Source: Floccifex porci (GTDB lineage Bacteria; Bacillota_I; Bacilli_A; Erysipelotrichales; Erysipelotrichaceae). Taken from it: DNA of 40,681 nucleotides. Location: NCBI RefSeq assembly GCF_009696175.1, contig NZ_VUMM01000017.1:1-40681 (forward strand), read 5' to 3'. The position numbers were made by a program, and so were the translations under genes. The notes below the pieces were generated by a model that worked only from the letters and a program-made list of their open reading frames with translations, was not told the origin of the DNA and did no database searches. This document shows, in pieces, positions 32,536 to 34,140 of this stretch; position 1 is the stretch's first letter, and each line of letters begins with the position of its first letter.

Positions 32536-33519
32536 TTATAGAGTAAATCCAACTTTTTTATAAACTTTACGAATTTTTTTATTCGCAATGTAATTTGCTT
32601 TTTCTGCACCTTGTTTCAATACTTCGTCAATTTTTCCACTTTCAATAATCGCTTTATATTTAGATTGTAAATCGGTTAAGAAATCAAAAATAGTTTGTCC
32701 AATTTCTTTCTTTAATTCACCATATCCTTTTCCCTGATAGCGAGATACGATACTTTCAATTGGTTCATTTGTAAGAACGGATTGAATTGTTAATAAATTT
32801 GATATTCCTGGCTGATTTTCAGGATCGTATTGAATGATTCCGATAGAATCGGTAACTGCAGACATAATCTTTTTACGAGCTACATTTGGATCGTCTAATA
32901 AATCGATGGTTCCTTTTGGATCGGTTACGGATTTTGACATCTTTTTTGTTGGATCCTGTAAAGAACATATTTTTTGACCTACACTTGTTGTGAGTGGTTT
33001 AGGGATTTTGAATGTGTCCGAATAACGATTGTTAAAACGTTCTGCCAGATCACGAGTCAATTCAACATGCTGTGTCTGATCTTTACCTACCGGAACATAA
33101 TCTGCATCGTAAAGTATAATATCACCAGCCATTAAAGGTGGATAAGTAAACAATCCAGCTGTGATTCCGGATTCTCCTTTAGCTGTTTTATCTTTGTATT
33201 GTGTCATACGCTGTAATTCTCCAACATAAGAAGTACAAGTCATGACCCATCCTAATTTTGCATGTGCATCTACATCACTTTGTAAAAACAGAGTGGTTTT
33301 TTCTGGATCCAATCCACAGGCTAAATATAAAGCAATCAGATCTTTAGTATTTTTTCTTAATTCTTTTGCTTCAATGGGAACTGTAATGGCATGTAAATTG
33401 GCAATAAAGATAAACAATTCATATTCTTCCTGATATTTAATAAATTGAGAAATCGCTCCAATATAATTTCCTAAATGTAATCGACCGGTAGGTTTTATTC
33501 CACTAACCATTCTTTCCAT
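32536..33519 (-). CDS. trpS: Tryptophanyl-tRNA synthetase
   Basis: A 327-residue class I aminoacyl-tRNA synthetase. The ATP-binding signature HIGH appears as LHLGNY within SGIKPTGRLHLGNYIGA near residue 5, and KMSKS is intact as KKMSKS near 193. Other Trp-RS motifs are VPVGKDQTQHVELTRDLA near 143 and the AMIDOT-like LFTYPPLMAGDI near 123. The length is that of compact bacterial TrpRS. The ATG follows AGGAGG. The 138-base gap to spx leaves no room for a T-box, and no T-box sequence is visible. Confidence 0.97.
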   Translation of the reverse strand: MERMVSGIKPTGRLHLGNYIGAISQFIKYQEEYELFIFIANLHAITVPIEAKELRKNTKDLIALYLACGLDPEKTTLFLQSDVDAHAKLGWVMTCTSYVGELQRMTQYKDKTAKGESGITAGLFTYPPLMAGDIILYDADYVPVGKDQTQHVELTRDLAERFNNRYSDTFKIPKPLTTSVGQKICSLQDPTKKMSKSVTDPKGTIDLLDDPNVARKKIMSAVTDSIGIIQYDPENQPGISNLLTIQSVLTNEPIESIVSRYQGKGYGELKKEIGQTIFDFLTDLQSKYKAIIESGKIDEVLKQGAEKANYIANKKIRKVYKKVGFTL

Positions 33520-33544: not shown

Positions 33545-33572
33545 ATTATAGCACCTAATTGATATTATTCAA
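33545..33572 (-). promoter_or_regulatory. Promoter of trpS
   Basis: Minus strand: TTGAAT (33572-33567), 16 bases, TATAAT (33550-33545), about 26 bases before the start codon. Confidence 0.6.
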
Positions 33573-33580
33573 AGTCTATA

Positions 33581-33609
33581 TTGACACTAGTAGAAAAGAA
33601 TGTTATGAT
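33581..33609 (+). promoter_or_regulatory. Strong sigma-A promoter of the spx-family gene
   Basis: Consensus TTGACA at 33581-33586, exactly 17 bases, TATGAT at 33604-33609. Its last base is the first base of the CIRCE-like inverted repeat. Confidence 0.8.
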
Positions 33610-33635
33610 TAGCACGCAGAGAAGAAGAGTGCTAA
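33609..33635 (+). promoter_or_regulatory. CIRCE-type operator (predicted HrcA site)
   Basis: TTAGCACGC, nine bases, GAGTGCTAA. The CIRCE consensus is TTAGCACTC-N9-GAGTGCTAA, so 17 of 18 half-site positions match and the spacer is exact. It covers the expected transcription start of spx, where HrcA binding would repress. Known sites sit in front of groESL and hrcA-dnaK. Confidence 0.8.
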
Positions 33636-33657
33636 TTTCGTCGAAAGGAGTGGTCTT

Positions 33658-34101
33658 ATGGTTCTATTGTATACATCTCCAGGGTGTGCAAGCTGTCGTA
33701 AAGCAAAACAATGGTTAAAAGACAATAACATTGAGTTTGTTGAAAAAAATATATTTACTACCTTATTAAATAAAGAGGAAATTAAATATATTTTGTCTCG
33801 ATGTGAAAATGGTACAGAAGATATCATTTCTGTTCGTTCAAAAGCATTTATGGCTTTAAAGAAAGATATTAATGATTTATCTTTAAATGAATTAGTGGAA
33901 CTGATTCAGAAAAACCCATCGATTTTAAAACGGCCTATTTTAATTTCTAAACAAAATTTAGTAGTAGGATATGATTCAGATGAAATAACGACAATGATTC
34001 CTTCTGAATTAAGAAATATTATTTCAAATGCCTGTACAGGAGAATGTCCTAGTTTTGAATTGTGTGGAAATGTTTCAAAAGAAGTAAGTGCTAGACCTTA
34101 A
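33658..34101 (+). CDS. spx: Spx/ArsC-family redox transcriptional regulator
   Basis: A 147-residue Spx-family protein that binds the RNA polymerase alpha C-terminal domain and redirects transcription under thiol stress. The N-terminus LLYTSPGCASCRKAKQWL has the redox switch Cys10-x-x-Cys13. ENGTEDIIS contains Gly52, the residue needed for RNA polymerase contact in Bacillus, and LKRPILI contains Arg92. These positions align without gaps to classical Spx. The protein is about 16 residues longer than usual (131) and the extra tail has Cys126, Cys130 and Cys136 (CTGECPSFELC). The start has AAAGGAG upstream. It is monocistronic with its own promoter, CIRCE-like operator and terminator, so heat-shock control by HrcA is likely. 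ArsC-type arsenate reductase is excluded by the two-Cys start and RP context. Confidence 0.9.
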   Translation: MVLLYTSPGCASCRKAKQWLKDNNIEFVEKNIFTTLLNKEEIKYILSRCENGTEDIISVRSKAFMALKKDINDLSLNELVELIQKNPSILKRPILISKQNLVVGYDSDEITTMIPSELRNIISNACTGECPSFELCGNVSKEVSARP

Positions 34102-34107
34102 AAACAA

Positions 34108-34140
34108 AAGTAATACGGTTTGAACTGTATTACTTTTTTT
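34108..34140 (+). terminator. Rho-independent terminator of spx
   Basis: AAGTAATACGG and its complement CTGTATTACTT form an 11-bp stem with one G-T pair, followed by a T-run. Confidence 0.88.

Follow-up and report, generated by a model that had tools for sequence, protein, structure and literature searches.

A predicted HrcA operator (CIRCE) at the spx promoter of Floccifex porci and its sister species

The window, i.e. the whole stretch of DNA analysed, is 40,681 nucleotides of a Floccifex porci contig (NZ_VUMM01000017.1), and it contains two divergent genes separated by an intergenic gap of 138 bp. On the minus strand, trpS (nt 32536–33519) encodes tryptophan–tRNA ligase (TIGR00233, 367 bits) and is preceded by its own promoter-like site, TTGAAT-16-TATAAT (nt 33545–33572, minus strand). 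On the plus strand, spx (nt 33658–34101) encodes a protein of 147 amino acids. Its promoter consists of the −35 hexamer TTGACA (nt 33581–33586) and the −10 hexamer TATGAT (nt 33604–33609), which match the consensus in 11 of 12 bases, are separated by a 17 bp spacer and include a TG preceding the −10. The final base of the −10 is shared with an inverted repeat at nt 33609–33635 (plus strand), the end of which lies 22 bp from the spx start codon. A ribosome binding site, AAAGGAG, is located at nt 33644–33650. The gene is followed by an intrinsic terminator-like hairpin (nt 34106–34137, plus strand), and spx is therefore probably transcribed alone as a single-gene unit.

The product of spx scores 152.8 bits against NF002459 ("transcriptional regulator Spx"), above the cut-off of 123, so that its earlier assignment to the Spx family holds. 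The best matches among solved structures are Spx chains, with E values down to 7.7e-35. The CxxC motif, Gly52 and Arg92 are functionally important in Spx, and the translation and its alignment to Spx show all of them to be present, the CxxC as C10-A-S-C13. Judged by these matches, the product is a bona fide Spx, and by homology it would bind the C-terminal domain of the RNA polymerase alpha subunit. The alignment to the PDB chains of Spx stops near residue 120 of the protein. The tail carries a Cys-x3-Cys-x5-Cys-Gly-like motif, for instance CNPSCPNYxxCG, that was seen in all the Spx orthologs printed from the family, one variant of which ends in CA and not CG. At the matching position B. subtilis Spx has the tail that is read by ClpXP and YjbH. 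The cysteine-rich tail might bind a metal or serve as a further redox switch.

The inverted repeat reads TTAGCACGC-AGAGAAGAA-GAGTGCTAA and is a CIRCE, with 17 of the 18 arm bases and the exact spacing of the consensus used here, TTAGCACTC-N9-GAGTGCTAA. The sole mismatch is a T to G change at arm position 8. The original prediction had placed a 17/18 CIRCE on the start region of a consensus promoter, and this is confirmed in both respects, with the operator starting where the −10 ends. With a transcription start about 7 nt past the −10, the operator would span approximately −7 to +20. It is the only match in the window at three or fewer mismatches, and shuffled sequences average 0.03. From base composition, 0.0011 sites with one mismatch or fewer are expected per 2.02 Mb genome, and 1.4e-7 per upstream region of 250 bp. 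In a scoring matrix made from the 12 other CIRCE sites of the genome, with the spx site left out, the operator obtains 26.9 bits; the 12 sites range from 22.8 to 28.5, and the next-best position in the window reaches 7.1. Inspection by eye and a scan of the upstream region found no second, degraded CIRCE near the spx −35.

A repressor that would read this operator is encoded in the same genome. One intact hrcA was found (PF01628, 192 bits; TIGR00331, 315.6 bits against a cut-off of 197.2), located in the gene order hrcA-grpE-dnaK-dnaJ with two CIRCEs in front. A search of the whole genome at three or fewer mismatches yielded 13 CIRCE-like places, while the reversed control pattern yielded 2. 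The 12 sites other than that of spx precede groESL (2), hsp20A (2), clpB (2), htpG (2), hrcA (2), hsp20B (1) and ftsH (1), and the motif is thus highly specific for chaperone or protease operons in this genome. The groESL, hrcA, clpB, htpG and hsp20A promoters have two CIRCEs, and spx has a single one, as do ftsH and hsp20B. At the paired promoters the −35 TTGACA often lies inside the upstream CIRCE and the downstream CIRCE adjoins the −10. The spx operator corresponds to these downstream copies. It joins the promoter through TATGATTAGCACG, which closely resembles the TATAATTAGCACG of htpG, and GAGTGCTAA then follows. Promoters with the −35 TTGACA inside an upstream CIRCE (TTAGCACTTATATGTTGACAGTGCTAA) and a second CIRCE at the −10 recur across the family; examples are G000 C7:20287–20356, C40:29068–29140 and C40:36637–36705, and others occur in other genera. 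As for ctsR, the genome has no match to PF05848 or PF17727, and among the control genomes only Lactococcus matched either model. The CtsR models likewise gave no match in the Bacillus subtilis control genome, although this organism has ctsR; their sensitivity is thus limited, and the missing match does not firmly establish that ctsR is absent.

The same specificity extends beyond this genome. In seven other genera, every one of the 40 CIRCE loci retrieved stands before groES, hrcA, clpB, htpG, hsp20, ftsH or lon, the last of these at one locus (genome G025). CIRCE is therefore nearly free of false positives in the family, and the case of spx is strengthened. The view that CIRCE is known almost only before groE and dnaK operons does not hold here, given the clpB, htpG, hsp20, ftsH and lon targets, and HrcA looks like a general proteostasis repressor in this Erysipelotrichaceae-type family, as far as its operators reveal. 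In one genome (G043), three hsp20 genes (C19:93512, C21:114471 and C21:205146) carry the same CIRCE at the same spacing, TTAGCACTCAACACTTTACAGTGCTAA or its complement, which suggests a recent duplication of the CIRCE-hsp20 unit.

The spx operator recurs in the sister species (G003), the closest relative, whose Spx and HrcA are 86% and 78% identical to those of F. porci. There, TTAGCAGGCAGAGAGGATGAGTGCTAA precedes spx, likewise 22 bp from the ATG. The two species share 17 of the 18 bases of the CIRCE arms, 7 of 9 in the loop and 18 of 22 in the leader; all six bases of the −35 are kept, the spacer between −35 and −10 agrees in 11 of 17 positions and the upstream intergenic alignment in 44 of 69, and the spx coding DNA is 81% identical. 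The identity of the arms is consistent with retention of the operator. Since the loop and the leader are also fairly conserved, a single species pair does not prove selection on the arms alone. Outside the two sister species the repeat was not found before spx: the best matches have 8–9 mismatches in three other congeners, 5 mismatches (178 bp from the start codon) in 25 other genomes of the family, and 7–9 mismatches in 40 further family members. A pattern joining GTGCTAA to the Spx N-terminus matched only the two sister species among 314 genomes of the order, and a similar pattern applied to 395 genomes of the class matched the genome of the window and one chance case lacking CIRCE. These scans need an exact GTGCTAA and the Spx motif, of which the stricter form used for the order occurs in 32 of 40 orthologs, and they are not exhaustive. 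The chance case of the class scan, in a genome of another family (G354), was rejected as an independent gain, for its GTGCTAA is a chance occurrence and its best CIRCE has 6 mismatches and lies inside a coding region. In two congeners (G001 C144 and G004 C149) a distant Spx/ArsC-type paralog is found directly upstream of a CIRCE-ftsH unit; this CIRCE was rejected as an spx operator, being downstream of the paralog and belonging to ftsH. The simplest history would be that the operator was gained once, in the ancestor shared by both sister species, and the gain looks recent. The proposed membership of spx in the HrcA regulon thus stands as a prediction, on the strength of hrcA, the proteostasis-only company of the other sites, the equal score and the sister species, but among the genomes covered it does not reach beyond these two species, and one refuting outcome named with the original prediction, a repeat not conserved before spx orthologs, is thereby partly borne out.

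We consider it likely that the repeat is a working CIRCE that keeps spx under HrcA repression, and that spx is switched on along with the chaperones when HrcA loses its activity. A bound HrcA dimer would sit over the end of the −10 and the transcription start of spx and thereby block RNA polymerase, as it presumably does at the CIRCE nearest the promoter of htpG, clpB and hsp20 in this genome. In B. subtilis, HrcA needs GroE and is inactive once unfolded protein titrates GroE, which is established according to a review (PMC10212131). A similar titration in F. porci, with GroE occupied by unfolded proteins under heat, would leave HrcA no longer kept active, and spx would be derepressed along with groESL, dnaK, clpB, htpG, hsp20 and ftsH. 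The Spx so produced would then act via RNA polymerase alpha, and an effect on the Spx regulon may be anticipated.

A weaker form of this proposal overlaps with it and is possible, though we hold it to be unlikely as the full account. HrcA would bind with only a small effect, the level of Spx being set mainly by ClpXP proteolysis and its basal level tuned by CIRCE. Such a division fits B. subtilis, where, according to the same review, YjbH-ClpXP acts on Spx after translation and the transcription of spx responds to PerR, SigB and SigM (PMC10212131). However, the cysteine-rich tail of the family is unlike the solved Spx chains, and proteolytic control may differ here. In the opposite direction, the GroE-HrcA switch might be the main heat input to Spx in this lineage, replacing the route through YjbH-ClpXP and protein stability, with the cysteine-rich tail adding a redox or metal input; this stronger form we regard as doubtful.

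Alternatively, the match could have arisen by chance or be in decay, and play no part in HrcA control of spx. Its absence before spx elsewhere in the family is what would be expected in that case. Nevertheless, this is quite improbable at the background rates given above, per genome and per upstream region, and the repeat is kept at the same position in the sister species despite the divergence of the spx coding DNA. The position of the repeat between promoter and start codon would also suit a hairpin in the leader RNA of spx, acting on mRNA stability or translation in place of a DNA operator. This is highly improbable, since the expected start site falls within the left arm and would leave nearly all of that arm untranscribed; moreover, the sequence itself, beyond mere pairing, is that of the HrcA operator. 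That the CIRCE serves trpS, divergent and close as it is, has the least probability of all and is rejected on geometry, because the −35 of the trpS promoter-like site (nt 33572–33567) lies over 35 bp from the CIRCE and points away from it, and the CIRCE adjoins the −10 of the spx promoter.

HrcA repression of spx, returned to as the preferred explanation, would mean that the folding load sensed by GroE sets, at the level of transcription, both the supply of chaperones and a global thiol-stress regulator. A shortage of folding capacity should then raise the production of Spx, which is a master regulator of oxidative stress. The locus also offers a case of regulon growth, in which one operator has apparently been gained before one regulator gene and the operator-free congeners serve as natural controls. 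In addition, the survey documents HrcA sites of the family before clpB, htpG, hsp20, ftsH and sometimes lon. The spx CIRCE is predicted to be a real but lineage-limited rewiring, found in two closely related species, which we find convincing and modestly surprising.

The literature naming CIRCE, HrcA and spx together was seen to contain no account of spx being controlled by HrcA, within a search that mostly covered papers open without subscription, and the review on B. subtilis does not name HrcA among the regulators of spx (PMC10212131). A CIRCE before a global regulator (rpoH) and the control of an spx-named gene by a heat-shock repressor were known before; the HrcA site at spx would be the new element. 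One close likeness is to HrcA/CIRCE of B. subtilis (groESL and hrcA-grpE-dnaK-dnaJ), with which the present system shares the operator consensus and spacing, the repressor family, the location of hrcA within the dnaK operon and an operator at the transcription start region. The regulon here differs in adding clpB, htpG, hsp20, ftsH and, in two species, spx. In the Mollicutes, the passages of PMC5138195 describe expanded HrcA regulons comprising the dnaK operon, clpB and lon. As in the present family, Clp and Lon genes belong to the regulon and some of them have a pair of CIRCEs, whereas those passages mention no spx, htpG, hsp20 or ftsH target.

Two other systems resemble the proposed wiring. 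In Geobacter sulfurreducens a CIRCE precedes rpoH (PMC545781), which is likewise a cascade from HrcA to a global transcription regulator, although the target is sigma-32 rather than Spx and the organism belongs to another phylum. In Lactobacillus plantarum, according to PMC3842655, spx1 is listed as a member of the CtsR regulon and is up in a ctsR mutant; the gene is named in the text and missing from Table 1. A heat-shock repressor thus appears to act on an spx-named gene there as well, but the repressor is CtsR, not HrcA, and spx1 is likened to spx by gene name only. Finally, proteotoxic stress also raises Spx in B. subtilis under heat, through YjbH-ClpXP, as the review relates (PMC10212131). 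The link in that organism is the stability of the Spx protein, whereas here it would be transcriptional, through HrcA.
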